A DNA stretch of 38,038 bases from Opitutia bacterium (GCA_002686835.1 NYYP01000029.1:1-38038); one strand, 5' to 3'; numbered from the stretch's first letter, positions 1 to 27,811 are shown. A program made the numbers and translations. The notes: generated from the sequence alone by a model not told the origin.

Positions 1-163
1 CGTAGTTCGGATCGTAGTTTGGATCCGTACTTCCATCATCTGCATAGTTTGGATCAGTACCGTCGTAGTTCGGATCGTAGTTTGGATCCGTACTTCCATC
101 ATCTACATAATTTGGATCAATATCGTCGTAGTTCGGATCGTAGTTTGGATAAGTATTTCCATC
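1..163 (-). repeat. 63-bp tandem repeat coding for Asp-Pro-Asn-Tyr-rich tail
   Basis: Bases 1-63 and 64-126 are near-identical copies differing at a few positions. A third partial copy at 127-163 matches the first with three mismatches. The period is a multiple of three, so each copy adds 21 residues to the giant FecR-domain protein, built from D-P-N-Y tetrapeptides and D-D-G-S-T. The array continues past the left edge, so the copy number is not known. Asp-rich repeats of this kind could bind divalent cations, but that is inference. Confidence 0.85.
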
Positions 164-3100
164 CAAAGATTCTTCGCTTGCGAGCTCAGGATCGGAAGTG
201 TCGTAATCTGGGTATGTAGAATCATAATTCGGGTCGCTTGGGTCCGTAGGATCGGCCTGAGCAGTTGTCCCTCCAACCCTGCGATCATCGGTTGATCCAT
301 CATATTCGGGAACTGTAAAGGATCCGTCTTCACCAGGATCAATTATCTCATCACCGTCTGCAGGAGCATAATCATCATGTGACTGACCTAAAAAGGATAA
401 TTCCTCGAATACTGCCATAGATTCAGAGAAGAAACTGCTGGCCATGGCTACCTCTGCCGAAACAATCAAATTGGGGTCAATTGAGCCTGTAAAAGAGTGA
501 TCCAAGAGGAAGGTCAGGGTTTGCAAATCGGGACTCGCATGCAAATCATCCCCTCCAGGAGGCTGGGAATCGGGATTCTCTGCGATTGGACCTTCAGACA
601 AGTCGGTTATAACCCGCTTAAGCTCTTCGCTCGACAAACCAAGGGCAAATAGCTCTTCTGCCAAAGGAACAGGGATTTCAACAACCGCAACATCAGACGC
701 ATGAAGGTCTCCGAGGAAGCGGGCCGCTTTTTTCTGATTTTCGGTAAGAAGTAATCGACCTTCTTCGTCCCTGGCAGTTGATTCATTACCAATTACGAAC
801 TCCAACCAAGACGGATCTGTGTCAAATATTTCAAGGGAACTAAATCCTGGAATCCCAACCAATTCTCCCACCTCCTTAAATGCGTAAAGTGCATCCAAGT
901 CGGTAATATTTTTAAAGAAGATATGCATTAATTGCTCGTCATAAACAAAAATCTCTTTCTCCTCAGTCTGTTCCTGACCATTCCCATCCAATTCAGGATT
1001 GCCGTTATCATCCAATTTAGGAATTACGACAGTTTCAAGACCACCAAATTCATTTGCGAAATCATTGACATCGTCAAGTTTGTCAAGGTTGGCGAAAACC
1101 AAGTCCAGGAATTCAGGATTATCCTTAAATTTTGATGCAGTCGCAGAAATTTCCGCTGCGATCTCTTTATTATCCTCGAAGATTTGATGGTATTTTTGAT
1201 CATATTCGTTGATAAGCTTAACAAATCCCGTATCAGCCATGGTACCTTCGGGATCAGTAAAGAGCGGTTGGATAGTGCTACCGCTTTGCTTCAGATCATT
1301 TAAAACATCCAGGAATGCATCTGCTTTGTCCGCAAATTGGAAAATCACCTCAATTCGAGAAGGCTCATATTTGAATTCTTCATAAAGTTTTGTGAGTGAA
1401 CTCGCTTGGCTTGGGTTGGCAAAAATAATGTCACGATGGGTGGGGTTGGTTGTAACTAAACTTCTAATGTCACGAAGCACTGTATCTCTTTTAACTCCCT
1501 CAAAGCGGTTCACAATGGAAAGCAAATCTTCCGACTTATCCAAATTATTAAAAAGGAAGTTTAATTGCCCCTTTTCTTCAACGAGTCCTTCAACATTTCT
1601 GTCTAAGCGATTTGTTAAGTCATCTAAAACTTCGAGCTTATCCACATTCTCAAAAACAGCATTTAACTTTTTCGGAGAAGAGAATAACTTTTCAGTGAGC
1701 GATCGATAATGAGAAAGATTTGCAGACTTAGTAGCATCATCTACATCTGCATTATTCAAATGGTCATAGATTTGATTTAATTTTACTTCATCAAACTTAA
1801 GTTTATCCGATATTGCCACAAGGTCATCAAGAGAACCAATGTTGGCAAATGCAATTTCGACTTTGTTTTGATCCTCCCCGATCACTTTGTTTAACTCCAA
1901 AAGATTATCAAGTTGATCTGAATTTTGAAGAAATTCATTACGCAAATCATCTTTTTTGGCAATTTCTTCAGGAGAATCAGTTTCCAATATTTTAATAGCT
2001 GGGCTATCTAAGATGAAAAGAACATCCCCTGCCCTGTCCGGTTCTACTGCAAAACTGGTGTAATCCTGAGCCCCTTCAGATGCTGTATCAGAAACACCGA
2101 GTTTCTTGGTTGCTGCAGAAATAGCAACACCAGTAGCCAAACCAGTATCCGGATCAAGAATTTCACTAAAGGAGTAAACACCCGCAACCGCGTCGGCAGA
2201 ACCCGTAAGGGTATTTACCTGCTCTGCCGTGAGTTGGTAAACATTTCCACCTTCGGCATCATTAATGTTTTGAACGCCAGCTAAATATTGCTCATCCAGA
2301 TCACCAAGGCTGGTAACTGTATCGATTTGGACAGTTTGCTGATTTGATGAATCGACAGAATAAAATTCCTCAAAGTTCAGGCTGAGGTCTTCAAATCGTT
2401 GGCCTTGCAATGTACCCAACGCCCCCGAAGCAATCACTTCGTCAAAGTCAAAGTCGTCTCCTCCACTGCTCAAACTATCAAAAATTCCACCTTCTGATCC
2501 TGAATCTTCACTTTCAAGAAGAACAGCTACCTGGGCTGCTTGTTCAGCATTATCTAAGACAGCATTTAGGGCTGTTATACTTTTTTTCTTCGATTCGGCA
2601 AATGATGTAATTCCATCGGGTATGCTGATTTCTAAACTTTCCAAAGAGGAGAGGATTGCGTCAACTTCATCAATAGTTTCTGCAAAATCTAAATCTTCCT
2701 GAGCTTGCGATATAGCATCTTGGGCTTCCTGGGAAAGACCATCATCAACCACAACAACTTCTGCAACTGCAGCGGTTGAAGCTGCAACTTCGGCCATAAC
2801 TTCGATACTGGCAAAGGCGAGTGCCGCATTTATCTCTTCTTTGACTGGAAATACAATCATCCAATGATCCACGGCAGAATTTGTGATACCGGGATCATAA
2901 TCAACCAGTAACTCACGAACTTTATCTTCAGTCTTGGCTCTAAAGATTTTAGTTTTGAGATCAGAATCGGTTATTGCATCAGGAAGGTTATCAGAAAGTA
3001 GAGTTTGTAATTCACTTATGCTTTCCTTGGTCTGGGCAGCTTCACGAAATTCTGTCGATACAGATGCCTGCTCTGCCCTAGCCGCAACTGCTTTTGCCTC

Positions 3101-6100
3101 CTGCTTCTTAGTATCCATTTGTTTAGCAACACTAATAATACTGAGGTTTTTCTTTCGACTAGTTACAAAGTTTGAAATTGTCTCAGGGACTTCTTCGCCA
3201 TCATCCAAGATGAGTTTATAGGCATTAAGTGCCTCATCTACTTGAGCAAGGGAAGTAGCAGTGCGAAGATCTTCAGTGAACTGCTCTTCCGCCAATCTCC
3301 GTTGTTCTGCTGCTAACCTGACAGCTTCGATTTCTGCCTGTATTGCCGCTTGCTCCTCAGCCGAGGCACTGGCCAATTGTTGCTCCAGAGCTTGTGCAGC
3401 AGCTTCTGCAGCAGCGGCTTCCTCGGCGGCTTTATCTTCAGCAGCCTTTTTAATGGCTTCCTCTTCCCTGATGGTATTAGCCATCGCAACCGCCTGGTCT
3501 GCGTTACGTAAGAGAGCAGCTTTAGTCTCGGCATCTGCTCCCTCGGCAGCTTCAAGAACTGTAGCAACAGATTCTGCATTAGCGGCATTGGCAGCAACTG
3601 TTTCCATTACTTCTTTTTTAGCCGCTTTCTTAGCTGCTTCAACTTGAGCTGCGATATCCTCTAAATTGGCCAGGATCGCTTCCAATTCAGTAATTGTTTG
3701 AGAAGCAGTTATTGCTTCAGCCTGCTCTGGAGCTAATTCAATGGCTTTTTTCTTGGCCGCATCCAACTCAACTGCATCTGCTGCTTGCTTTGCTTTTAAA
3801 AGTGAATCTGCCTCATTCGCATTTTCAAGGAATTGGGTGACATCCACTCCTTCATCTGCTGCAGATGATACAACTTCACTAAGTTCCGTTGCCTTCTCTG
3901 CATTATCCAAAACATTCGTAAGCAAGGTTGCAGCACCACCGTCTGCGCCACCAGACTCGACAGCTTTATCAACCAGAACTTTCAAGTCATCTGCTTTATC
4001 AGCATTATTCAAAATGGAATCCAGATCGGAACCACCACCGTTGTCTTGAACACTTTTTGCCACTTCAACAACCGTATCAATCTTTTCAAAAACATTCTTG
4101 GAATTTATCTCCTCAATTCGATTATCGATAAGATTTTGAAGGAGACTCAAACTTTCACCGGAAAATTCTTCCCCGTCCACATTACCACTTGATCTCCATC
4201 CATTTAGGGTAGCCTTGTCCTCTGCAGCAAGTATCAATTCTTCAACCTCAAAGGAAACAAAGGCTCCGGCAGCCTCCGCCTCAGCGGCTTGCTTTTCGGC
4301 AGCGACTTTTTTGGCATCACTCGATTTAACCACATTAAACAACACATTCAATTTTGCGGTATCCTGAACAGCCTCTCCTTCACCATCACCTCCGCCAGTA
4401 GAGGAAGACTCAACGACCTCAGCGAGTTTTTCGGCCTGATCGGGATTTTTAAGCAATGCCGTAAGAGTGGATGAATCACCCGAGGAAAGCGATTGAGCAG
4501 CATCAACAACCTTTTTTAAGTCTTCGGCTTTGTCTGCGTTTTTAAGAAGACTTCCAAGGTCCGCCTTATTTTCGGCAGCAGCATCTGCTTCAGCTTTGGC
4601 TGCAAGTGCGGCAGCATCTGCTTCGGCTTTGGCTGCTGCTGCTGCTGCTTGCTTGGCAGCCCGTTCAGATTCATCCGCAGTGAGAATATCTTTCTGGGCA
4701 TTTGCCAGCGTGGTGAGATCTAAGCCAGTAATATATTCTGCAAGGTGTGCTTCATTGAAAGCTGAAATTAATGCATCTATATCTGCAGTCGTTTCAGCAT
4801 TTTCTATGGCCTCGAGTTTAGCTTGATAATCTGCTGTGGCTGCTTGTTTTGCGGCAGCCGCAGCCTCGATTTCAGCATTTTTATCGACCATTTCCTTCAA
4901 CGCAGTGGCCTGGTCTGCATTTTCAATCATGTTATCAAAGCCGGTATCAGCAGCCTTGGCTTCAGCTTCGGCCTTGGCACGCTCTGCAGCGGCAGCTTTG
5001 GCCTGAGCACGTGCTTCTGCTTCGGCCTTAGCCGCGGCAGCCGCGGCAAGTTTTGCTTCCCTCTCAGATTCAGAAGCACTTAGTATTTCTTTTTGCGCAT
5101 CGGCCAATGTGGTAAGATCTAAACCATCTCTGTTTGCTTCGGAGTGAGTATCATTAAAAGCAGCGACTAAAGCATCTATATCAGTAATTGATTCGGCAGC
5201 TTCAATCTCAGCAAGCTTTGCCTGATAGTCGGTGGAAGCAAGTTTCTTGGCTTCAGCCACAGCTGCTTCAGCCGCTGCTTGTTCCTCAACTTCAATCGAG
5301 GCTACCGCTAAGTCAGATACAGTTTCTAAATTGCCGAACACATTTTCTTTTTGGGCAGCAGATGCCTCAGCTTTGATTGCCACTCTGCGAGCTTCGGCGT
5401 TGGCAGATAAATCCAACCCATCCGATGTAAGTGTGGCAACAATTTCTGCATCATGTGCATTTGTAAATTCAGTAACCAAGGCATCAACACTGGCAGAATC
5501 AGCTGCTGCCTTAATTGCTTGAAGTTTTTCAGAGTAATCATCAGTTGCGGCCTTTTTCTTGGTAGCTAGCTCTTCAGCTAGGCGTTTCTCTTCAGCTGCT
5601 AACCTGGCAGCATCTAACTCAGCTTGAATTTGGGCTTGTTGCTCGACTGAAGCTGAGGCAAGTTGTTCCTCAAGTAAGCGGGCAGCTTCTGCAGCTGCAG
5701 CTGCTTCCTCTGCTGCTTTTTGTGCTGCTGCTTCTTCCGCAGCTTTTTTGGCCGCAGCTTCCGCAGCTGCTTGGGCGGCAGCCTCTTCTGCAGCCTTTTT
5801 ATCCTGTTCTGCTTTGTCTACACTCTTGACAACTTTAAATACGCCCAAAACCTTTTTCTCAGCCTGTTCGGAATCAGTCTCTTTCGTGGTTTCCGCAGAG
5901 GCAACCACTTGGGCAACTTCGTCGGCCTTTTCGGCGGTACGAAACATTGCAGTCATGGTGTCTTTACCGTCCTGTGTGACTTCATCGTTTCCATCGGAGT
6001 TTCTGCGACCGGAAGTAAAGGCATCTTTAGCCACATCAATCACTTTCTTCAGGTTGCTCGCCTTGTCAGGATTACTAAAAACAGCGTCCATGTTTTCTGC

Positions 6101-7306
6101 ATTCTTCGCCCCGATATCGTTGGCATCTCCAAGTACAGCTAGGAGATCTCCAGACTGATCAGAACTTTCGGCAAAAGCGGAGATTTTCGTGGAATCCTTT
6201 AAACCCAAGGCTTCCGATTCTTCCGTAACATCGACCACATTTCCAAAATTGGAAACAAGATCGCTTACAAAAGTGGTTTCATCCTTATCCGATTCACTGC
6301 TCCTTCTGCCCGCCCGCCGCTCTGCTTTTTTCTGATCCAGCATTTCAGCAGCAGTTCCAGCAACTTCAACATAGGTATCTGCCTTGGCTGCATCTTCGGG
6401 GTTTTCCAAATCAAGTATGCCTGCTTTCTCAAGAGCTACTGCTTCCGTACCATTTTCATCATCCCCAACTCCTTTGGCAGAGGCTTGCCTTTCATCGTCG
6501 GACTCATTCAATTCATCTTCTTCAGGTGCCTCATCTTCCGGATTTGATTCAGGCGTATCTGCGGGAGGAGGACCTTCTGTAGCTTTACCCGTGGCTGCAC
6601 TTGCCTGGTCCACCTCTGCCTGAATCGCTTTCATCACTGCCGCAGGCACTCTGCCAATTTTTATGGGAAGTGTCATTCCGGATGCACTAATTCCGGATGC
6701 AAGACTCTGACCAGGTCCCAGCATGGTGGGTCGACCTCCTCCTTTGGGCATGTAAGAAATCTGCCCTTTTAGCATTTGGGTGGTTTGGTTAATTGTTCCA
6801 TCTGGTAGTTGAACAACCTTCATCCGGGGGATTGTTCCTCTAATACCAGCAGTGCCCACCGGAGAATCGATGTTAAAACTGGATTCTTTTTTCAGTTTTT
6901 TGACATCAACAACCATATCCCCCAGGTTTAAATCAATAACCGTTTCAGAGGGACTCGGTTCGTCTGCTCTGGCAGACAATTTACCAACTGCTTTAGGATC
7001 AAACTTTTGTTGAGCAAATTTTTTGATGTTTAATACAGAATCTTCTTTAAGCGTAGTGATGGTACCAGATGAAAAAAGTAAAACAACTTTTGAACCTTTT
7101 CCCGTCTCCACAGTATGTCCATCAAAAATCATGCCACCCACCTTTACTCGGTCGGCGGACAAAAGAGTACCGGATTCATTATTTTTAACAGAAACCTGCC
7201 CCTCCATGCTAGCAATGATGATCGCACCTTTCGAATCAACTGCAATTGCATGAAAAGTGAGAAGATTTGAAAGTAAGAAAATGAAGAAAAGGTGGAAGTG
7301 TCTCAT
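1..7306 (-). CDS. Giant exported FecR-domain, Ala-rich repeat protein (C-terminus beyond window)
   Basis: Reading the complement triplet by triplet from the ATG at 7304-7306 gives 2435 codons with no stop, still open at the left edge. Residues 1-22 form a signal peptide (hydrophobic core, A-I-A before V23). Residues about 24-160 look like a FecR domain: G-x-V start, 'VETGKGSKVVLLFSSGT', 'LNLGDMVVDV' and a closing 'GTAGIRGT' at 153-158. An acidic linker with Pro and Glu follows (about 235-290). The body is helical: an Ala/Glu/Lys coiled coil at about 493-577, three tandem 100-130-residue units, and about 18 copies of a degenerate F-x-N-x-D-K-A-x-x-L motif. The tail from about residue 2306 is Asp/Asn/Pro/Tyr-rich. 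The protein is probably surface-exposed or periplasmic. FecR domains outside iron signalling are common in PVC exported proteins. It follows the oligosaccharyltransferase gene by 72 bases, so cotranscription is plausible. The start has no clear Shine-Dalgarno. The function is unknown. Confidence 0.85.
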   Translation of the reverse strand, partial: MRHFHLFFIFLLSNLLTFHAIAVDSKGAIIIASMEGQVSVKNNESGTLLSADRVKVGGMIFDGHTVETGKGSKVVLLFSSGTITTLKEDSVLNIKKFAQQKFDPKAVGKLSARADEPSPSETVIDLNLGDMVVDVKKLKKESSFNIDSPVGTAGIRGTIPRMKVVQLPDGTINQTTQMLKGQISYMPKGGGRPTMLGPGQSLASGISASGMTLPIKIGRVPAAVMKAIQAEVDQASAATGKATEGPPPADTPESNPEDEAPEEDELNESDDERQASAKGVGDDENGTEAVALEKAGILDLENPEDAAKADTYVEVAGTAAEMLDQKKAERRAGRRSSESDKDETTFVSDLVSNFGNVVDVTEESEALGLKDSTKISAFAESSDQSGDLLAVLGDANDIGAKNAENMDAVFSNPDKASNLKKVIDVAKDAFTSGRRNSDGNDEVTQDGKDTMTAMFRTAEKADEVAQVVASAETTKETDSEQAEKKVLGVFKVVKSVDKAEQDKKAAEEAAAQAAAEAAAKKAAEEAAAQKAAEEAAAAAEAARLLEEQLASASVEQQAQIQAELDAARLAAEEKRLAEELATKKKAATDDYSEKLQAIKAAADSASVDALVTEFTNAHDAEIVATLTSDGLDLSANAEARRVAIKAEASAAQKENVFGNLETVSDLAVASIEVEEQAAAEAAVAEAKKLASTDYQAKLAEIEAAESITDIDALVAAFNDTHSEANRDGLDLTTLADAQKEILSASESEREAKLAAAAAAKAEAEARAQAKAAAAERAKAEAEAKAADTGFDNMIENADQATALKEMVDKNAEIEAAAAAKQAATADYQAKLEAIENAETTADIDALISAFNEAHLAEYITGLDLTTLANAQKDILTADESERAAKQAAAAAAKAEADAAALAAKAEADAAAENKADLGSLLKNADKAEDLKKVVDAAQSLSSGDSSTLTALLKNPDQAEKLAEVVESSSTGGGDGEGEAVQDTAKLNVLFNVVKSSDAKKVAAEKQAAEAEAAGAFVSFEVEELILAAEDKATLNGWRSSGNVDGEEFSGESLSLLQNLIDNRIEEINSKNVFEKIDTVVEVAKSVQDNGGGSDLDSILNNADKADDLKVLVDKAVESGGADGGAATLLTNVLDNAEKATELSEVVSSAADEGVDVTQFLENANEADSLLKAKQAADAVELDAAKKKAIELAPEQAEAITASQTITELEAILANLEDIAAQVEAAKKAAKKEVMETVAANAANAESVATVLEAAEGADAETKAALLRNADQAVAMANTIREEEAIKKAAEDKAAEEAAAAEAAAQALEQQLASASAEEQAAIQAEIEAVRLAAEQRRLAEEQFTEDLRTATSLAQVDEALNAYKLILDDGEEVPETISNFVTSRKKNLSIISVAKQMDTKKQEAKAVAARAEQASVSTEFREAAQTKESISELQTLLSDNLPDAITDSDLKTKIFRAKTEDKVRELLVDYDPGITNSAVDHWMIVFPVKEEINAALAFASIEVMAEVAASTAAVAEVVVVDDGLSQEAQDAISQAQEDLDFAETIDEVDAILSSLESLEISIPDGITSFAESKKKSITALNAVLDNAEQAAQVAVLLESEDSGSEGGIFDSLSSGGDDFDFDEVIASGALGTLQGQRFEDLSLNFEEFYSVDSSNQQTVQIDTVTSLGDLDEQYLAGVQNINDAEGGNVYQLTAEQVNTLTGSADAVAGVYSFSEILDPDTGLATGVAISAATKKLGVSDTASEGAQDYTSFAVEPDRAGDVLFILDSPAIKILETDSPEEIAKKDDLRNEFLQNSDQLDNLLELNKVIGEDQNKVEIAFANIGSLDDLVAISDKLKFDEVKLNQIYDHLNNADVDDATKSANLSHYRSLTEKLFSSPKKLNAVFENVDKLEVLDDLTNRLDRNVEGLVEEKGQLNFLFNNLDKSEDLLSIVNRFEGVKRDTVLRDIRSLVTTNPTHRDIIFANPSQASSLTKLYEEFKYEPSRIEVIFQFADKADAFLDVLNDLKQSGSTIQPLFTDPEGTMADTGFVKLINEYDQKYHQIFEDNKEIAAEISATASKFKDNPEFLDLVFANLDKLDDVNDFANEFGGLETVVIPKLDDNGNPELDGNGQEQTEEKEIFVYDEQLMHIFFKNITDLDALYAFKEVGELVGIPGFSSLEIFDTDPSWLEFVIGNESTARDEEGRLLLTENQKKAARFLGDLHASDVAVVEIPVPLAEELFALGLSSEELKRVITDLSEGPIAENPDSQPPGGDDLHASPDLQTLTFLLDHSFTGSIDPNLIVSAEVAMASSFFSESMAVFEELSFLGQSHDDYAPADGDEIIDPGEDGSFTVPEYDGSTDDRRVGGTTAQADPTDPSDPNYDSTYPDYDTSDPELASEESLDGNTYPNYDPNYDDIDPNYVDDGSTDPNYDPNYDGTDPNYADDGSTDPNYDPNY
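915..6085 (-). repeat. Dispersed ~20-residue 'F-x-N-x-D-K-A-x-x-L' protein repeats
   Basis: Within the giant protein, about 18 segments share the pattern hydrophobic-(F/L)-x-N-(A/P/L)-(D/E)-(K/Q)-(A/L)-x-x-L-x-x-hydrophobic. Examples are AVFSNPDKASNL (near 6071), SLLKNADKAEDL (near 4546), SILNNADKADDL (near 4005), AVFENVDKLEVL (near 1661), FLFNNLDKSEDL (near 1551) and LVFANLDKLDDV (near 1091). They are separate in the Ala-rich half and densest between 900 and 1950. I do not recognise this as a named repeat family. The spacing suggests two-helix units, possibly a solenoid. Confidence 0.65.
4650..5542 (-). repeat. Three tandem ~100-130-residue helical units in the giant protein
   Basis: Three successive units begin near 5542, 5230 and 4831. 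Each carries D-Y-x-x-K-L-x-x-I, then D-(I/V)-D-A-L-(V/I)-x-x-F-(N/T)-x-x-H, then G-L-D-L-(T/S). The second and third are closest to each other, sharing 'DYQAKL' and 'GLDLTTLA', and each is followed by an Ala/Lys/Glu stretch. The pattern indicates internal duplication. Confidence 0.7.
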
Positions 7307-7378: not shown

Positions 7379-10300
7379 TTATTTTTTCCTAAATTTGTAC
7401 ACTTTTCCCCAAGCATTCGAAAAAACTTTTTCAAAATATTGATTGTCTAAATCCTCCATAAAATAACCCTGTACAAGCAGGCTATTAAACGCTTCGTCAT
7501 CCATAAAAAACCATGCTTGTCCGATTTGGTATCCCATCCCGGGTATTTTGACAACATCACCAGAATTCAGGTTAGCATTTTCACTCATGGAATTGTACGA
7601 AGCGATTGCAGGAACTTCCAATCGGTGGATTTTTGCAACCTCGCTCAACATTTTCACGCCATCCTGAACCACATAATCCCGATCCCCACTAAAATAGGGA
7701 ATGCTGGTTTGAATAAGATGAAACCTGGCACCCTCTTTTTTCATGGATGGACTATCAATTAATTTCGCAGTTCTGGGGTCGTGCAATTTACGGTGGAAAG
7801 AAAAAGGTATAGGTGTTGGTGAGTTAGGCAAAGTAGCGAGATTTTGCGATAAATCTGCCTCAATCTTATACCCCCCGCGCATATTCAGTATAATTTTAGA
7901 CCCTTTACTAGTAACCCAGTCTGCCTGAGTGAAAAAAGGCTGCTTTCTGGGATCAGCACCTTTTGAAAAGTGCGGATGTGCATAAACTTTTTCATCGAAC
8001 CGAGAAAGGAGATACCTTCTTGCAAATGAGGAACGAAAAGTATCAGCAGATACGATAATCAATTCGTTAAGATGAGGTACATGGACCAGCCTTCTACCTA
8101 CGGTTGGATCGTATTTCATTGCTATTCGCAAACCATCAACCATCAAAGAGTCGATTGATTTTGCAGGCCCACCCTGGGGATCAACCTCAAAGACCTGCCC
8201 ATAGGATATCATGCCTTTCTGCACCCCATCGACCAAGAGGTCTCCCCGTTGATTTAATCGATAACCACCATCGAAAACATAAGATGCCCCCTCTCTTCTT
8301 CCACCTCGAAGTATTAACATGGGTGGCTCTTTAATGGAAGAAGAGTTGGCCCCTTCATTGCCCGCAAAATAAAGGTTTCTTGAACTAAAACTCAAAATTG
8401 TCGGGAAAATACGAAGAATCTCATAAGGTAGAAAAAGAAATGTATCACGAGTTTTCTGGGGTATGGGATAATCTTCATGCCCTACATCATGCAACAAACC
8501 TTGATAAAAAAGCTGCTCAGAAGTGCCATCTTTGAATAAGGCTTGCACTGCAGTAGAAAAATCTCTCGATCCTTCCTCCTGCAATTGATTCTGAAGGTTT
8601 ACATATGTCTCTGTCTTAAGACGTGCAAGATTGTAAGCTTTCGCTGCTGAGGTGGACCGAAGAATTTCGGAACTAAGAAAATTATCCACCGTTTGATGTG
8701 CAGGAGATGTAAAAGTACGGGTATTCCCATAATACCAACACCCAGACCCGTAATCCCACCAAGTTACAACAAAATCGCCAGGTTCTGATGCCTGGTTTAA
8801 TTCTTCGAGCACTTCCATTGTCTTGATTGGATAGACGACATGAGAATGATAATTGGCCGCATGCTGTAAGTTTGGGGATGCAAACCATAGAACAAGTAGT
8901 CCAACTATTCCCCATGTTCCCCAACGTGCCTTGCTTTTAAAGGCTTCTTCATTCATTCGCTTTTTAGCCATGAGTCGAAGAGCCCCCCAACTTAGAACAA
9001 AAAGTAAAAAAACCAGACCAATCGCCGCGTAATTTCCTACATGGACAGTGAATCTTAAACCCACATTTCCCTGGAAACAATTGTAGGCAATCGCCATAAA
9101 CGGAACAGTTATACAAAATTCCCAATGCCTGATTATAAGTAATCCCAGACCAATCAAACCAAGAATAGACGCGGGAACTACCAATCCGGCATTTTTCAAA
9201 CCCTCGGGCATGCAACGTGGGCACGAGCAGGTTGGAGTATCCGCAAGAATACGGTTCCGGACAACTTCATGTGGTATCTGACTGGCTTCCCGTATGGTGG
9301 TTTTTACATCCAAGAACTTCAGTGCTTCAGCCTCGACAGCCATGGTAGCACCCGTTTTTCCCACCACGGAATAACTTTGTAACTTGCCTGTTATTTTGAA
9401 CCATGTTCCTGAAAAGGGGCCAATGTTTGTAAAAGGTGCTACCCCTATAACCAGCAACAAAAGAAAGATGACTGAAATTGCAGGCAGAGCTTTTGAGTGG
9501 GAGAATTTTCCGATGATGTTTTGGCACTTTACCGCAAATGGAAAAAAGGAAGCGATAATTAAAAAAACAAGTGGCAGGAGGCCAAAGAAAAATTTCTCCG
9601 GAGAATGTTCAATAACTCTACCCGAAGACCAACTTTCCACAAATAATACCCACGATAAAATAACAATCGTAGAAAAGGTAAATGGACTACTTAAGCTGGT
9701 AAGTAACTTCTCGAGATTCTTGTCCGTACGATCTGCCAAGGAGTCCAAAATACACAAGCCTACTTGGTACCCAATAAAACCAAGGCACAAGGTACAGGTT
9801 ACAGCCTGTATCGAACCATAAAAAAAGCGACCAAGGAAAAGAGAAAGGGCAGCAGCTAACAAGTATTTAACAGATTTTTTACGAGAAGCAGCCAACAAAA
9901 AAAACACCGAAAAAGCGGGTAATGTAATCGCAAAAATATCAGTATCATAATAACCGGCCAAAGTACGATTATAATAGCTATGGGTAATACCCGCCAAGCA
10001 GGCAGCTCCAACACCCCATAATGTACATCCATATAACCGTCCGATTAAAATCAGAGGTATGCAGACCAAACCAGCAACATATACGGGCAGCCATAAAAGC
10101 AGATGTTCAATAGAAAGCTCAGGAAAAAGTTTGATTAACCAATAAGGGAGAGCCGTAATCATCCCGTTTTGATAAACGCCAGGAAGCAAATCATTATTTT
10201 GATGCATACCCAGTGCCGCTTTTTGGACAATACTTCCAAAATAAAAACTGTCATGGGTATTGGGTAATGCCACTCCATCCTTGACCATATTAGGCCGAAG

Positions 10301-10495
10301 GAAAACGGTCTCTCCCTGATCATTAAGATAATTTGCCTGGGCATAATCAATCCATTCCAACCTGACCCAAAAGCTCAAAAGATAAGCCAATATTATGAAA
10401 CCAAAGACAGCAGTCTTCGGGATCCGGTCATGGGGTAATTCGATCAGATTCTTACCAAAGCCACGGCTAGATATTGCAGATTCAAGAAAGCTCAT
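7379..10495 (-). CDS. pglB: STT3/PglB-type oligosaccharyltransferase
   Basis: This 1038-residue membrane enzyme is predicted to transfer a lipid-linked glycan to Asn of exported proteins at the periplasmic face. About 12-13 membrane segments fill the first ~540 residues, and a periplasmic domain of ~500 residues follows. Catalytic landmarks of the STT3/AglB/PglB family are visible: D82 in 'NTHDSFYFG' (first acidic motif), 'YYNRTLAGYYDTD' with D184 (second), E403 in 'TIREASQ' (external loop 5) and WWDYG at 579-583. 'VGLRFTVHVGNYA' resembles the PglB segment after loop 5. The protein is longer than Campylobacter PglB (about 710), mainly in the C-terminal domain. C423, C425 and C428 form an unusual C-x-C-x-x-C after loop 5. 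It lies 49 bases after the MotB-like gene and 72 bases before the giant FecR gene, all on one strand. No glycan-assembly genes are in view. The family call is strong; the symbol is by analogy. Confidence 0.88.
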   Translation of the reverse strand: MSFLESAISSRGFGKNLIELPHDRIPKTAVFGFIILAYLLSFWVRLEWIDYAQANYLNDQGETVFLRPNMVKDGVALPNTHDSFYFGSIVQKAALGMHQNNDLLPGVYQNGMITALPYWLIKLFPELSIEHLLLWLPVYVAGLVCIPLILIGRLYGCTLWGVGAACLAGITHSYYNRTLAGYYDTDIFAITLPAFSVFFLLAASRKKSVKYLLAAALSLFLGRFFYGSIQAVTCTLCLGFIGYQVGLCILDSLADRTDKNLEKLLTSLSSPFTFSTIVILSWVLFVESWSSGRVIEHSPEKFFFGLLPLVFLIIASFFPFAVKCQNIIGKFSHSKALPAISVIFLLLLVIGVAPFTNIGPFSGTWFKITGKLQSYSVVGKTGATMAVEAEALKFLDVKTTIREASQIPHEVVRNRILADTPTCSCPRCMPEGLKNAGLVVPASILGLIGLGLLIIRHWEFCITVPFMAIAYNCFQGNVGLRFTVHVGNYAAIGLVFLLFVLSWGALRLMAKKRMNEEAFKSKARWGTWGIVGLLVLWFASPNLQHAANYHSHVVYPIKTMEVLEELNQASEPGDFVVTWWDYGSGCWYYGNTRTFTSPAHQTVDNFLSSEILRSTSAAKAYNLARLKTETYVNLQNQLQEEGSRDFSTAVQALFKDGTSEQLFYQGLLHDVGHEDYPIPQKTRDTFLFLPYEILRIFPTILSFSSRNLYFAGNEGANSSSIKEPPMLILRGGRREGASYVFDGGYRLNQRGDLLVDGVQKGMISYGQVFEVDPQGGPAKSIDSLMVDGLRIAMKYDPTVGRRLVHVPHLNELIIVSADTFRSSFARRYLLSRFDEKVYAHPHFSKGADPRKQPFFTQADWVTSKGSKIILNMRGGYKIEADLSQNLATLPNSPTPIPFSFHRKLHDPRTAKLIDSPSMKKEGARFHLIQTSIPYFSGDRDYVVQDGVKMLSEVAKIHRLEVPAIASYNSMSENANLNSGDVVKIPGMGYQIGQAWFFMDDEAFNSLLVQGYFMEDLDNQYFEKVFSNAWGKVYKFRKK

Positions 10496-10544: not shown

Positions 10545-12161
10545 TCAGTACTTGAACTTCTTGTTCAATCCAGAAAGATTTCTGCTTAGGTCATGGAGTA
10601 AGGCATTGGTTTTGTCCGCCTGAAAGGAACTACCAAGCAAAGTTCTGGAACCACCATGGATACGACTACCCAAGTTCTTAACATGAAAGGCATAGTCTCC
10701 ATTTACCATTATACCAAGCAACTCTGCTTTTTGAGAAAAGACCAAGTCTCCTTTACCAGGATTGAAAGCTCCAGTAAGAAAAGCAAAGTGCTTCTCATCC
10801 ACTTCAATGTATCTGCCATCTTTTTCATCCCGCAAACATTTGGTCTGACCGAACCGACCGTCTTTAACATCCACGACCACAGCATCGTCGAACAAAAAAG
10901 GATTCTCCGGAGCATTGAAAAGTTCAATTCCGGTTTTGGCGAGCTCTTGAGGATTCGCATAGAGTGGGACGATGATGATTCTCGGATCATCCATAAAGGC
11001 AATCTCCTTGACCTGAAGTGGTTCCTTGAATTTTGGCCCGGTGATTTGGCCGGTTACTGAGACTAATTTTCGCGGATTAAACTCAACCCGAAAAGGACTG
11101 TCTTTTGCATGCACTAAAGCGTAGACAAAATTTCCATCAACCATGAGAATAGTATCAACAGAAAATTTATCATCCCTGTTTGTTTGAAAAATTCCAGATT
11201 TGTGGGTGTAAATGAGATCTAAAGAGACCTTGTTTTGTTCATAACGGGTAAAAATTTCATTAACCGAACGAGTCTGTCTTTCGTTTAATTTCCGGAAATT
11301 CTCTTTTTGTACTTCCACCGATTCCTGAACATCTTTTTCTACCTTGGACACACCTTCCTTCACCGAACTAACATCATCTGATACTGTGGAGATTTTCTCA
11401 CCAACACCTACCAGCCCTTCCCCAACTGATTTTAGATCTTTACCCACGCCGTCCAACCCTTTGTTTAGGCTATCAATCTTTTGATCTATCTTTGCGGTAG
11501 ATGCAATGAGCTCGTCTGATCTTTTCTTTTCTTCAATTAACAACGCTTTTGCTTCAGCAGCAGCTAGTTCCTGAGCTTTTGCACGCTCTACCGAAGCTGC
11601 CAATTCCAAACGGGCAGCCTCTGCCTCTTTTTCTTTCTTTGATTTTAATTCCGCAAGTTCTTCCGATTGCTTCTTGGCTTGCTCTAAATTTTTAGCCAAC
11701 AGTTCCAGTTCCTTTTTGGACGCAGCATTGCTTTGCAGAAGTTCTTCCCTCTTTCTCTCAATCTCCTTGCGTTGTGATTCCAGTTTCTGGGCCTCTTTCT
11801 TTGCCAGATCGAGGGCCTCCTTATTGCCTTCAATCACTGCATCCTTGGATGCAATTTCCTGCTCTTTCTGCTCAAGTTCTTTCTGACGCTGGGCAATCTC
11901 TGCTTCAAGTTTGAGCTTCTGTTCAACAAGATCATCCTTATCACTGCTCAAGTTTTCCAGTAATGTTTCATTGGTCGCCTCCAATTCAGCAACCACATCG
12001 TCATAATTCTCTCCATCCGAAATTCTTTCGACAACTTCTTTGGAGACTACTTTTTGATCATCCTGAGCGATCACTGCATCCTTGGGCACATCAAAGCGTG
12101 CCAGGGCAAGAATGCTAAGGAGCAGGAAGTCGCAGACTACGAGCAGCAAGCTGCGGTTCAT
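10545..12161 (-). CDS. MotB/TolR-like single-anchor protein with long coiled coil and C-terminal beta domain
   Basis: This protein has 538 residues. It opens with one hydrophobic segment, 'SLLLVVCDFLLLSILALARFD', in which D11 sits inside the membrane span, as the proton-path Asp does in MotB, TolR and ExbD. Residues about 50-230 are a charged heptad coiled coil rich in Glu, Lys and Ala. Residues 230-290 repeat 'V-G-x-G-L-x-x-V' and 'S-x-V-x-x-x-V-S-K-V', another helical stalk. Residues about 315-538 form a mixed beta domain whose 'GKGDLVFSQKAELLGIMV' recalls the trypsin-like G-x-S-G-x-P region but lacks the catalytic Ser, so it may be a degenerate protease fold (weak inference). The start ATG overlaps the stop of the upstream TolQ/MotA-like gene as ATGA, which indicates translational coupling and a two-subunit complex. 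The exact function is unknown. Confidence 0.6.
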   Translation of the reverse strand: MNRSLLLVVCDFLLLSILALARFDVPKDAVIAQDDQKVVSKEVVERISDGENYDDVVAELEATNETLLENLSSDKDDLVEQKLKLEAEIAQRQKELEQKEQEIASKDAVIEGNKEALDLAKKEAQKLESQRKEIERKREELLQSNAASKKELELLAKNLEQAKKQSEELAELKSKKEKEAEAARLELAASVERAKAQELAAAEAKALLIEEKKRSDELIASTAKIDQKIDSLNKGLDGVGKDLKSVGEGLVGVGEKISTVSDDVSSVKEGVSKVEKDVQESVEVQKENFRKLNERQTRSVNEIFTRYEQNKVSLDLIYTHKSGIFQTNRDDKFSVDTILMVDGNFVYALVHAKDSPFRVEFNPRKLVSVTGQITGPKFKEPLQVKEIAFMDDPRIIIVPLYANPQELAKTGIELFNAPENPFLFDDAVVVDVKDGRFGQTKCLRDEKDGRYIEVDEKHFAFLTGAFNPGKGDLVFSQKAELLGIMVNGDYAFHVKNLGSRIHGGSRTLLGSSFQADKTNALLHDLSRNLSGLNKKFKY

Positions 12162-14434
12162 GCCCCTTTTTCTTCAGATTGCTTGACCAGCAAATGGTTG
12201 CGGTAAGGCCGAACGATTACAATCTTCAGAGCCGCAACAAACAAGATACCAAACAAAGTTGAGGTGTATGCTCCAATAAGAGCATCTTGTTTGACATCCA
12301 ACACAAGCAATAAAATGAGTGAAAGTACGGTGCCTCCAAGACCAACATAGAGACCAAGATCAAACAGGTTCTCTTCGTTGTCGAGCAGACCGAGTTTGAG
12401 TCCCGCTTTCAACTCTTCGTTTTTGATTTGCGAAACGCGTGAAATACAAATCATGAAAATCACGATTTGAACAAGCAGAAACACTCCTGCCACGATCGCG
12501 GTTACGATGGTTAGATTTTGATCCGCCATAGACTCCTCATTGGCGTAGGCGAGCAGATTCGCAAGCGCAAAATCAAACCCGGCTACGGACACCTGTCCCC
12601 TTGGTGTTTGCAAAAGCGAAGGCTCAAGAGCCAATACACTTAGCAAAGCAAACAAGGTAGATGCCGATAACCTGCGTGTCCAACGAAGAGAATAATGACT
12701 CTGGGAACGCTGGAAGCTAGGTTTCGGCAGTGTTTTTGAAATAAATAAAAGTAAACAAAAGAAGGAAGAGATGAGTAATAAAATTTTCAAGCTTATCGAA
12801 AGATCTCGGTGCTTGTGCGAAAGATCAGTCAGTACACCGCCACCAAACAAAGGAAACATCGGTTTAGCCAGATTTACCGCAAATCCATCCTGGTGAACCG
12901 GTTTATTTCGATCTAAAAGATGATCGAGGGCACCTTTCCCATAAGTCATAGCTAATTTAAGATCATCAAGGGCCCTTTCCACAGCATCCTCGTCGCCATC
13001 CTTCTCAAACACAGGATAGTCACTTACAAATCTTAGTATGCCAGAAGGATTGCCAGAAAGTAAGGTAGCTGAATAAATGATTTGTAAATTATGCTCAAAT
13101 TCCGACTGAACCACCTTTTTCTCCTCGATCATCTCGAGGATTTGATCCCTTGACTCTTCTCTTTTGTCCATAGGCAGAAAACCAACCTTGCGGTTGGCTT
13201 CTTTAATTTTACCAATCGATGAGGAAAGTGGTCGGTTTAGCATACGAATCAAGGCAGCAAGATCGAAAACACCCTGAAGGTTTGGACAGCTTTGGGTAAG
13301 TTCAGCCATTTGAATAAGATTCATTTTTCGGGCTAATTGATGGGCAGACCAATAAAAGGAACGAATTCGTTCCTTCGAACCATGATCCCCATCCAGGGCC
13401 TTTTGGGATAATCGCCCAATTTCGAAAGCCGTATCCGCAGAATAGTAATCTTTCTCGATCGACATCGCTGTACCTACCATCATTGGCACCAGAATTGGGT
13501 ATGGTAACCAACGACCATGACTTTCCATCTTTCCTGCAGAATTAATAATTCCCCCGATAATCACGGCATATCCTCCATCGTTGGTACGCCCAAGTTTCAA
13601 CATTACTGCACGATCCGCCAGATCAGCAAAGTCAAGTCCACTTGTCAGAGAAAAATTACCATCAATTTTATTGATTTCGGTCTCGGTTCCCTCTTTACGA
13701 ACATCAAACCACTCGGCACTTCCCGAAAACTCGGCTAATTGAACCTTGGCCTCCGCTAAGCACAAATCCCGAACCTGTGCGTCTGTTACATTGCCCTCAA
13801 ACGCTTCTGGACCGCGCAAGCCCACGGAGAGTAAAACCTTGCGACCAGAGAAAAAAGGATAATTCGTCAACTTAGCAACCTTGACCCCTGGAAATGCATA
13901 AACCAGGGGTTCATTCATTAATTTGGTCCAGAAAAAACCCGGTCTACCATCCACAGGAATCGAACGCAGGAGTGCCTGTACATTATCGTTTGAACTTTTA
14001 TCCCTTAAGCGGTCCCAAAGATCACCCCGGGATGTCGCACGATTATAGACAAAAAAGGCCTGATAACGACCACGATCCAAATTATATTTATCCAAGCCTC
14101 CAAAATATTCATTGAAGGTAAGCATATCAAAGATGCTACCACCTCCAGATATTGATAGTTCAGGATGTGCCTGATTCTTCGCTTCGATAGCCTCGGCAAA
14201 TTCCTGTCGCTTAGAAACAGATGCCAAGGGAAGCAACATCTCAGCCGGTCCCACATTATTTTGACGTAATTGTCGAAGCATTTCCTCATCAACTGTCTTG
14301 GTGTTTTCTCCAATATCAGCCAAAGTACGCTCTGAAACGGATGCAAAATAAACAGGTGCTCCCAAGCCGAGAATTCCAAGAATTACCGCCAATGGAAGAA
14401 AGGTTACCCCGCCAATCCTGAACTTATTTTCCAT
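12158..14434 (-). CDS. TolQ/MotA-like multi-pass membrane protein with large periplasmic domain
   Basis: This protein has 758 residues. An N-terminal anchor (12-31) is followed by a soluble region of ~510 residues with no family I recognise. Five further spans lie at about 549-567, 591-606, 642-665, 693-712 and 719-741. The last two, 'YVGLGGTVLSLILLL' and 'AYTSTLFGILFVAAL', resemble the paired channel helices of ExbB/TolQ/MotA ('GLLGTV' and 'A-x-x-T-T-x-x-G-L'). The partner gene downstream, joined by ATGA, has a MotB/TolR-like anchor, which supports an ion-driven stator pair. The start is supported by AAGGAG on the minus strand (14445-14450), ten bases before ATG. Three extended N-glycosylation sequons are present (N215, N260, N640). 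It is the first gene of the minus-strand cluster that includes the oligosaccharyltransferase. The motor assignment is inference from short motifs plus gene pairing. Confidence 0.55.
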   Translation of the reverse strand: MENKFRIGGVTFLPLAVILGILGLGAPVYFASVSERTLADIGENTKTVDEEMLRQLRQNNVGPAEMLLPLASVSKRQEFAEAIEAKNQAHPELSISGGGSIFDMLTFNEYFGGLDKYNLDRGRYQAFFVYNRATSRGDLWDRLRDKSSNDNVQALLRSIPVDGRPGFFWTKLMNEPLVYAFPGVKVAKLTNYPFFSGRKVLLSVGLRGPEAFEGNVTDAQVRDLCLAEAKVQLAEFSGSAEWFDVRKEGTETEINKIDGNFSLTSGLDFADLADRAVMLKLGRTNDGGYAVIIGGIINSAGKMESHGRWLPYPILVPMMVGTAMSIEKDYYSADTAFEIGRLSQKALDGDHGSKERIRSFYWSAHQLARKMNLIQMAELTQSCPNLQGVFDLAALIRMLNRPLSSSIGKIKEANRKVGFLPMDKREESRDQILEMIEEKKVVQSEFEHNLQIIYSATLLSGNPSGILRFVSDYPVFEKDGDEDAVERALDDLKLAMTYGKGALDHLLDRNKPVHQDGFAVNLAKPMFPLFGGGVLTDLSHKHRDLSISLKILLLISSFFCLLLFISKTLPKPSFQRSQSHYSLRWTRRLSASTLFALLSVLALEPSLLQTPRGQVSVAGFDFALANLLAYANEESMADQNLTIVTAIVAGVFLLVQIVIFMICISRVSQIKNEELKAGLKLGLLDNEENLFDLGLYVGLGGTVLSLILLLVLDVKQDALIGAYTSTLFGILFVAALKIVIVRPYRNHLLVKQSEEKGA

Positions 14435-14521: not shown

Positions 14522-15094
14522 ATGAGTTTACAAATTCGATATTTCGGCGACCCAATACTTAAAGAAATGGGTCAAAAAGTTGAAACTTTTGATGAGCAAT
14601 TATCCAAGCTTTCATCTGATATGCTTGATCTGATGCACCGCTCCGAAGGGATTGGTCTAGCTGCCCAGCAAGTAGGTATTGCTCTACAATTTTGTGTGAT
14701 GGAGGTTCCCGAACACCCCGACTATCCCATTACCTGCATATTAGACGATAAACCACTTACCCCATCTTTGATCATGCCAATTTCAATGGCTAACCCCATT
14801 GTTTCCGCTTTACCGAGTGATGAATATTACTACGAGGAAGGATGCTTATCTTTCCCGGGAATTAATGCAGATGTTGCTCGACCCGAGCGAATCCGTGTGA
14901 CTTACCAAGATTTAGATGGAATTGAGCACACACTTGAGTGTGATGGACTGCTTGCCAGGTGCATTCAACACGAAGTCGATCATTTAAACGGTATACTCTT
15001 TATCGACCGCATGGAAAAAAGGACATATGCTGAGATTAAAAAAGAGGTGCAGGTACTGAAGAAGCAAACGATTGGGGAGAAAAAAAGTAAATAA
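14522..15094 (+). CDS. def: Peptide deformylase
   Basis: This 190-residue protein removes the N-terminal formyl group from nascent proteins in the cytoplasm. All three family motifs are present: GIGLAAQQVG (43-52, G-x-G-L-A-A-x-Q), EGCLSFPG with metal ligand C108, and QHEVDH with ligands H150 and H154 and catalytic E151. The length fits the family. There is a modest insertion between motifs one and two (about 64-85, 'PDYPITCILDDKPLT'). It is transcribed divergently from the minus-strand cluster and followed after 26 bases by a Fur-family gene, a probable two-gene operon. Confidence 0.95.
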   Translation: MSLQIRYFGDPILKEMGQKVETFDEQLSKLSSDMLDLMHRSEGIGLAAQQVGIALQFCVMEVPEHPDYPITCILDDKPLTPSLIMPISMANPIVSALPSDEYYYEEGCLSFPGINADVARPERIRVTYQDLDGIEHTLECDGLLARCIQHEVDHLNGILFIDRMEKRTYAEIKKEVQVLKKQTIGEKKSK

Positions 15095-25924: not shown

Positions 25925-27811
25925 CTATTGCTTATCCACCCAGCGACTTAGTCCCTCAATAACAAGAGATTGCTGATTTCCTTCTATATCAATTTGTACT
26001 TCCTCGCCCGATTTCTTGCCAAGCATACTTTGGCCCAATGGGGTAAGGTAAGATAGGATATTATTTTCAGGATCGCTATCCCAAGCACCTAATATGGTGT
26101 ATTTAAATGTCTCACCTGATCCGAGATCTTTGAGATCTACGATCGATCCAATCCCGGCAGTGTCTTGCGGTGCATCAGTAAAATCAGTGGCTTGGGCACG
26201 CATCAAGTCAGCCTGCAGTTCGGCTTGCCGGGCGAGCAAGACTTTTTGGTCATCCTTGGCCATGTGATATTCAGCATTTTCCTTGAGATCTCCAAGTTCG
26301 CGGGCCGCTTCAATCGCTTGCGAATTCGCCGGAATTTTTTCCTTTGTAATCTCATCGAGGTCGGCAAGTTTCCGATCATAACTCTCTTTGGATACGATCA
26401 GGGTTTCATCTATTGCACCACCAGATGAAGGAGTGGAATCAGAACTTTCTTCTCTATCCAACATTGATTGGATTTTTGGGAATTTCTTAATAAACCTGGC
26501 AAGCAACGAACGTTTTGTGAGGTCTTCGAATCCTGGGTTAAGCATAAGTGCCTGAGCCAGATCCTTTGCATTTTCCTCAGTGCCCTTACCCAGAATGTCG
26601 GCAACTAATTCCCGGTCGTCTGATAAGACTTCTGCCAAGGGTATCCTACGGCTGGTTGCATTTTTAAGGGACTCATAATCAATGGCAGAAAAAACTGCAG
26701 TAAGTAATCGAGGATTAATCATTTCTCCGATTAAGTCCTGAAATTTTGCAAGCCTGCGAAATTTTAACATCCACAGCAAAACAGGTGCTTTGAGGTTTTG
26801 TTCGTCCAACCATGAATTGAGCGAAGAAATTAAGAGTTTTGACTCTTCCCGATCGATTAAGAAATGGGCACATTCACCCGAAAATTTAACCGCTGTATGC
26901 TGCAACAAATTCAGTACAATATTTTTCCAGTCATCCGGGTAGGTTCGGGCAACAAGATCGAGAAATCTTGAATGGAATTTTGCCGGCATCAAATCTGCGA
27001 GAGCGGGCAAATCATCTTCACACTCCTTGAGGATGGATGCTGATGTGGGTTCCAACTTTTCAACATCTTCTTCCACATCACGGGCGAGGTTGTTGCGCAC
27101 CCAGATACCGTACAAACGATCGGCCTGACTGAGGTTTTTTGCCTCCATTATGGCAATGGTGAGGTCATGGAGAACTTGGGGGAGATCGGCTTTTAGATCT
27201 TCTTTTTCTGAAGCTAAATCAAACAGTCTTTCTGCTAATACAATTTTTTCATAAGATCGTTTTTCCTCAAAGAAGTCCTGCAAAATTTCCTGTTCAGGCT
27301 TAACCGGTTCATCCCTAAGTACATAGGGTTCATTCTTCTTATTTGGAACTGCAATACGCGGATCCTTGATGAGTACCTTCTTGGTTGCTGTCCACCAACG
27401 TTTTGCCTTTGCAGCACCGAACATGTAACCAAGAATTCTTTCAATATCACGGGTGTTCATGCACCCATCATTCCCCTGCTCCAAAATCTTGATGATTAAC
27501 TCAGCGGGCTCTTTTTTGGCAATTTTTTCAATTTCCTCGGTATTTTTGCGATGTTGAGCGAGAATATGATTTTCGGAAAGAAGATCCAATTTATCGATAC
27601 AAAATACCGGATCCATTGCATGACTGGTGCGCTCATCGTCCTCAAAATCGATAAGAATCATACCACGATCGTCATCAAATCCTGAGATAATCCCGAATCC
27701 CCAACTACGATGAATGCAGTATGTTCCTGGATTCATAGATTCTAGGATTGGGCGTGAGGACTCGAGGGATGGATCTTTCTCGACCAAGCGATCGATAACT
27801 TCAGTATTCAT
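25925..27811 (-). CDS. greA: Long GreA-domain transcription elongation factor
   Basis: This protein has 628 residues, whereas ordinary GreA has about 160. Residues about 469-628 are a complete GreA: a coiled-coil hairpin 'ESYDRKLADLDEI' to 'RQAELQADLMRAQ' with the acidic tip 'GDLKENAEYH' (D and E that coordinate Mg in RNA polymerase), then the FKBP-like part 'GIGSIVDLKDLGSGETFKYTILG' and 'SPLG-like' 'TPLGQSMLGKKSGEEV'. The N-terminal part starts with a small Tudor/CarD-like beta segment, 'GTYCIHRSWGFGIISGFDDD', and continues as a helical region of about 400 residues. Chlamydial GreA proteins are similarly long, which supports PVC ancestry. It should rescue backtracked RNA polymerase. The role of the extension is unknown. 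Confidence 0.88.
   Translation of the reverse strand: MNTEVIDRLVEKDPSLESSRPILESMNPGTYCIHRSWGFGIISGFDDDRGMILIDFEDDERTSHAMDPVFCIDKLDLLSENHILAQHRKNTEEIEKIAKKEPAELIIKILEQGNDGCMNTRDIERILGYMFGAAKAKRWWTATKKVLIKDPRIAVPNKKNEPYVLRDEPVKPEQEILQDFFEEKRSYEKIVLAERLFDLASEKEDLKADLPQVLHDLTIAIMEAKNLSQADRLYGIWVRNNLARDVEEDVEKLEPTSASILKECEDDLPALADLMPAKFHSRFLDLVARTYPDDWKNIVLNLLQHTAVKFSGECAHFLIDREESKLLISSLNSWLDEQNLKAPVLLWMLKFRRLAKFQDLIGEMINPRLLTAVFSAIDYESLKNATSRRIPLAEVLSDDRELVADILGKGTEENAKDLAQALMLNPGFEDLTKRSLLARFIKKFPKIQSMLDREESSDSTPSSGGAIDETLIVSKESYDRKLADLDEITKEKIPANSQAIEAARELGDLKENAEYHMAKDDQKVLLARQAELQADLMRAQATDFTDAPQDTAGIGSIVDLKDLGSGETFKYTILGAWDSDPENNILSYLTPLGQSMLGKKSGEEVQIDIEGNQQSLVIEGLSRWVDKQ

Follow-up and report, generated by a model that had tools for sequence, protein, structure and literature searches.

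The range of known ion-driven motors, whether rotary or ratchet, is small, and their classification defines members by homology to MotA. In MotAB, ion uptake by the Asp of the dimer occurs halfway through the membrane (PMC9389320); in both this motor and ZorAB, the critical Asp lies packed against the Ser/Thr ring of the pentamer (PMC11890865). We characterized a pair of genes, A and B, on the minus strand of a 38,038-nucleotide stretch of DNA from Opitutia bacterium (GCA_002686835.1 NYYP01000029.1:1-38038; hereafter the window). Gene A (12158..14434) encodes a 758-aa membrane protein with six transmembrane (TM) spans and both termini inside, and gene B (10545..12161), downstream of it, encodes a 538-aa single-span protein. 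The two open reading frames (ORFs), which had been recognized in an initial annotation of the window, are present at these positions and overlap by four bases (ATGA). We consider it likely that A and B constitute an ion-driven membrane motor akin to MotAB, ExbBD and ZorAB, with A as the candidate MotA-like wheel subunit and B as the candidate MotB-like axle subunit, and that they represent a family new to the libraries searched.

Conserved core of A and its partner B

Hydropathy and the positive-inside rule gave A a topology of six spans. The last four, in a conserved core at residues 575-758 (12161..12712), have the orientation of those in MotA. TM3 (residues 589-607; 12614..12670) and TM4 (641-664; 12443..12514), the probable equivalents of MotA TM1 and TM2, are joined by a periplasmic loop, while TM5 (691-713; 12296..12364) and TM6 (717-741; 12212..12286), the probable equivalents of MotA TM3 and TM4, form a hairpin that is followed by a basic C-terminus. 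A four-span wheel topology and a coupled downstream partner with one N-terminal span are shared with MotAB and PomAB. The initial annotation had described two channel-like helices at the end of A; this hairpin is present, but the protein has six spans and it is the last four that make up the conserved core.

The core is the only part of A common to all homologues. Relatives in Opitutales are mostly ~550-600 aa long, and in several other families A is a ~180-aa protein consisting of the last four spans alone. The ~510-residue periplasmic domain (residues 31-545; 12800..14344), which belongs to no known family, is absent from these ~180-aa homologues in other orders. Because the core is common to all A homologues and the large domain is not, it is the core that defines the family; the ~510 extra residues noted initially outside the channel are indeed present and periplasmic, but are lineage-specific and not part of the conserved unit. 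The domain is anchored by TM1 (residues 10-30; 14345..14407, from hydropathy) and followed by TM2 (547-565; 12740..12796), after which the cytoplasmic stretch is basic (K+R 6, D+E 0). A 2025 survey of MotA homologues, made by iterative searches from E. coli MotA, reported 'extraordinarily large periplasmic domains' in non-flagellar A subunits (PMC12505986). Large extra domains are therefore shared with some non-flagellar MotA_ExbB relatives, and the size of A alone is not new.

Conservation within the core was assessed in 126 A sequences. Gln in TM4 (Q656 in A) was found in all of them, and Asp at the cytoplasmic end of TM5 (D692) in 125. The TM5 motif YxG[LIM]xx[TS], represented in A by Y696-x-G698-L-x-G701-T702, was likewise present in 126/126, and the TM6 motif A-Y-x-[ST]-[TN]-x-x-G-[IL], represented by A722-Y723-x-S725-T726-x-x-G729, in 123/126. 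The corresponding alignment columns carried T/S (column 184, 126/126), S/T (column 207, 123/126) and T/N (column 208, 126/126). An A-x-x-x-T-x-x-G pattern in TM6 is shared with MotA and ExbB (AMVGTFLGIL in E. coli MotA, ALLATAIGLV in ExbB), MotAB also having [IL] after it, and the penultimate span opens with G-L-x-G-T-V, as in ExbBD and TolQR.

The N-terminal span of B (residues 4-22; 12096..12152) is oriented N-in and carries D11 (codon 12129..12131), the candidate ion-binding residue, confirming the single Asp-bearing span that had been proposed. An Asp-bearing span in the partner is also a feature of ExbBD and TolQR, and the Asp is followed by Phe as in MotAB (A-D-F in MotB, C-D-F in B). 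Residue 11 was Asp in 124/124 adjacent partners (61 distinct N-termini), a count in which position 11 was left out of the search score. Position 12 was F in 121 and V in 3, while position 10 was C in 114/124 and I, M, V or L in the others. D11 is the only membrane-embedded acidic residue seen conserved in the A/B pair, and by analogy with known motors the conserved Ser/Thr residues of TM5 and TM6 are candidate partners for it. In 14 close relatives, B shows no variation at residues 1-26 and A hardly any from ~609 to 750, indicating that the B span and the A hairpin amount to more than chance.

The pairing of A and B extends well beyond the close relatives. A contig search with the close family returned Opitutales/Verrucomicrobia only, with close relatives on 19 contigs. 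The full-A profile matched 117 of 388 Verrucomicrobiota genomes, and the core profile (A7) found exactly one copy per genome in 116 of 384, representing 56 of 193 genera; all core matches had E <= 1e-31, with none between that value and the 1e-3 cut-off. B adjoined A downstream in 124 of 126 loci, with the 4-base overlap in 57. In the two loci lacking an adjacent B (L033 in genome G337 and L040 in genome G343), both genes were kept, on different contigs or ~70 kb apart. Adjacency and the constancy of D11 across Verrucomicrobiota, which had been suggested as a check on the pair, were therefore both observed. No relative was found in IMG/VR or on plasmids, and a mobile-element reading was dropped.

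At the profile level, the A family is distinct from the canonical MotA_ExbB proteins of the same genomes. The genome from which the window derives (2.16 Mb, Opitutales-like) has one copy of A, along with five canonical MotA_ExbB paralogues and one MotA_N match. Most of the Opitutales relatives likewise have 5-12 such paralogues beside a single A; PF01618 finds these yet misses A, and the core profile never picks them up.

Comparison with motors and proteases

A low-confidence AlphaFold2 model of residues 575-758 of A (pLDDT 62, pTM 0.48) contained four spans, of which TM5 and TM6 form long helices. When this model was compared with 350,542 PDB chains by Foldseek, PomA/MotA occupied ranks 1-8, then 10, 11, 12, 14, 17, 22 and 25, with ExbB following at 30 and ZorAB at 39. 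MotA/PomA are represented in PDB by ten distinct sequences in about 85 chains, and this scarcity makes the ranking specific.

Several results weigh against a motor-like A. The MotA/PomA matches were weak (E between 0.02 and 0.13 across ranks 1-8, TM-scores near 0.3 and a global root-mean-square deviation of about 25 A), and the core model was built from 17 closely similar, nearly invariant sequences. The TM4-TM5 loop is only ~27 residues long (665-690) and lacks the large cytoplasmic domain that MotA and PomA have between the second and third core spans. Sequence comparison gave no significant match to known motor subunits: Pfam MotA_ExbB (PF01618) was silent for A and 15 short homologues even at E 10, an NCBIfam search returned no family for A, and a PDB hmmsearch gave no match to MotA/TolQ/ExbB or MotB/ExbD. 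Comparison of A with ExbB and MotA alignments by hhalign yielded probabilities of 0.5-11%, near those of reversed controls; in some forward comparisons the best MotA alignment fell on the expected TM3-TM4 positions, not clearly above those controls. A column-permutation test did not single out the motif, and the B span alone matched no MotB/ExbD/ZorB chain. The profile searches proposed in the initial annotation, of the C-terminal region of A against MotA/TolQ/ExbB (Pfam, hhalign) and of the B N-terminus against MotB/ExbD, thus came back empty, and A was consequently not filed in PF01618. The resemblance drawn there to MotA/TolQ/ExbB is supported by topology, by the Ser/Thr motifs and by the top, though weak, structural matches (MotA/PomA), but not at the level of profiles. 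We conclude that A probably works like a MotA-type wheel and is likely a remote relative of it.

Beyond its span, B departs from the partners of known motors. Residues 40-300 (11262..12044) form a periplasmic coiled coil whose heptad periodicity peaks at 3.50 residues and clearly exceeds the 99% shuffle level, and residues 305-538 (10548..11249) form a beta-rich C-terminal domain, in agreement with the coiled coil and beta domain described at the outset. Whereas MotB and PomB have an OmpA-type peptidoglycan-binding domain and the partners of ExbB and TolQ an ExbD-type domain, no Pfam match was obtained for B or for seven diverse B proteins, and the absence of OmpA and ExbD domains was borne out; the head is HtrA-like instead. 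Weak SMC, TolA and filament matches of B were rejected as reflecting coiled-coil composition only. ExbB and TolQ also differ from the A core in having three spans.

For the modelled head (residues 283-538; model of low confidence, pLDDT 53), Foldseek listed 50 matches, almost all of them HtrA/Deg proteases and the best of them Deg1 (E 3.1e-4, probability 1.00). B shares with these proteases a trypsin-like fold. A conserved segment D-P-R-h-h-h-h-h-P lies, as assigned by eye, at the place of the strand bearing the HtrA catalytic Asp, and the tail motif G-D-x-V-F-x-x-x-G-E-L-L-G-I aligns with the HtrA GNSGGP...GxLVGI region. Comparison of the head with HtrA families by hhalign was not significant, though the best alignment kept this register. 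Between the two deepest B groups, the C-terminal domains show homology (hhalign probability 95.5, E 1.5e-8). Unlike HtrA/Deg proteases, B has a coiled-coil stalk and no PDZ domain, and the catalytic-Ser motif GNSGG was absent from all B proteins inspected, PGKGD-LVF and equivalents standing in its place. The absence of GNSGG suggests that the head, as modelled, is probably an inactive protease-type fold that serves in binding.

ZorAB, a motor divergent from MotAB, shares with A-B the Asp/Ser-Thr logic of the ion site. However, ZorA extends into the cytoplasm with a long tail, and ZorB carries a domain that binds peptidoglycan (PMC11890865), whereas A and B are conserved, single-copy genes with no defence genes seen adjoining. 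PADLOC, which includes ZorA and ZorB profiles, gave no match for A and coiled-coil noise only for B; a reading as Zorya or another defence system was rejected for want of a PADLOC match. The impression that the architecture of the pair was unrecognized agrees with the lack of a Pfam, NCBIfam or PADLOC family, and no description of the A-B pair turned up when the text of open papers was searched.

Proposed mechanism and rival explanations

The stoichiometry, ion flow, motion and client that we propose for A and B follow the described motors by analogy. The last four spans of A would form the wheel, expected in five copies, and the N-terminal span of B would form a dimeric axle. D11 would bind H+ or Na+ against T702, S725 and T726 of TM5 and TM6, and ion loading at D11 would turn one subunit ring step by step relative to the other. 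The parallel coiled coil of B may carry torque or pull across the periplasm to the inactive HtrA-like head, which may grip a client in the envelope or outer membrane. The large periplasmic domain of A, where present, could anchor the wheel or gate the complex.

The same architecture could instead belong to a static membrane scaffold or sensor, in which D11 docks the B span into A, and the coiled coil and pseudo-HtrA head sense the state of the envelope, as in DegS-like anchored HtrA proteins, and signal to partners such as a kinase, with no ion flow. The HtrA-type head is consistent with such a role, as is the failure of A to show significant sequence-level homology to motors. A Ser/Thr kinase with an FGE-sulfatase domain does follow A-B in one clade, but in part of that clade only. 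More difficult to reconcile with a scaffold or sensor are the placement of MotA/PomA at the head of the structural ranking of the core and the centring of conservation on D11 and the TM5/TM6 Ser/Thr/Gly residues, which constitute the ion path of known motors. We regard this explanation as unlikely.

Two further explanations are very improbable. The start of B could be read as a lipoprotein signal (residues 1-10) ending in Cys10, with an Asp at +2 for inner-membrane retention and D11 unrelated to ions; Cys10 is indeed common, with hydrophobic residues ahead of it and an Asp after it. This reading was rejected because Cys10 varies, being replaced in ten partners, and D11 does not. In addition, the residue before the Cys is I, V, M, L or T rather than G, A or S, and the sequence stays hydrophobic for ten more residues past D11. 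It is equally doubtful that A-B is an accessory complex of the STT3/PglB-type oligosaccharyltransferase (OST) encoded downstream. That gene lies 50 bp away on the same strand, in an order kept in close relatives, but STT3 was beside A-B in no other lineage inspected, and an OST role is therefore not the general function. An ion-driven motor is the reading that we prefer.

Gene neighbourhood and significance of the family

The oligosaccharyltransferase gene (7379-10495, minus strand; PF21436, PF02516, WWDYG motif) is the downstream neighbour of B. Every close relative for which enough sequence is available preserves the order A-B-STT3, but this holds only within the group to which the window belongs. 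In one metagenome-assembled contig (L014:5998-9807), A and B are each split by a frame change while relatives are intact; the neighbouring STT3 frame is broken too, so the splits are probably a sequencing error. STT3 is adjoined by a giant ORF of at least 2435 aa (1-7306, minus strand) that runs off the window and has a FecR domain near its N-terminus. Upstream, a peptide deformylase gene (14522-15094, plus strand) is the divergent neighbour of A, an arrangement that several Opitutales families share. In part of one distant clade (L126:7908-15151, L119, L131 and L136), A-B is followed by the Ser/Thr kinase, which has one TM span and PEGA-like and FGE-sulfatase domains, and then by an ABC-F ATPase. 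STT3, the kinase-FGE protein, ABC-F and deformylase were each confined to some lineages and were rejected as obligate partners. Since no third gene was constant beside A-B in the lineages inspected, the pair is probably self-contained. Elsewhere in the window, a 628-aa protein (25925-27811, minus strand) has GreA/GreB transcription factor domains confined to the final ~155 residues, while the ~470 residues at its start are without a Pfam match.

A and B may represent a separate, ancient branch of 5:2-type ion-driven motors, spread across a phylum and missed by the searched libraries, whose output is delivered by an HtrA head that has no catalytic activity and sits on a coiled-coil shaft; this would be a so far undescribed use of ion-motive force in the envelope, and we regard the case for it as evenly balanced. 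If the proposal is true, a strictly paired family that escapes the profiles used here, and that occurs as a single copy in about one-third of the Verrucomicrobiota genomes sampled, would add to the envelope functions known to draw on ion gradients. The ~180-aa A homologues and their B partners would offer a minimal system, amenable to expression, for testing the wheel-axle design.

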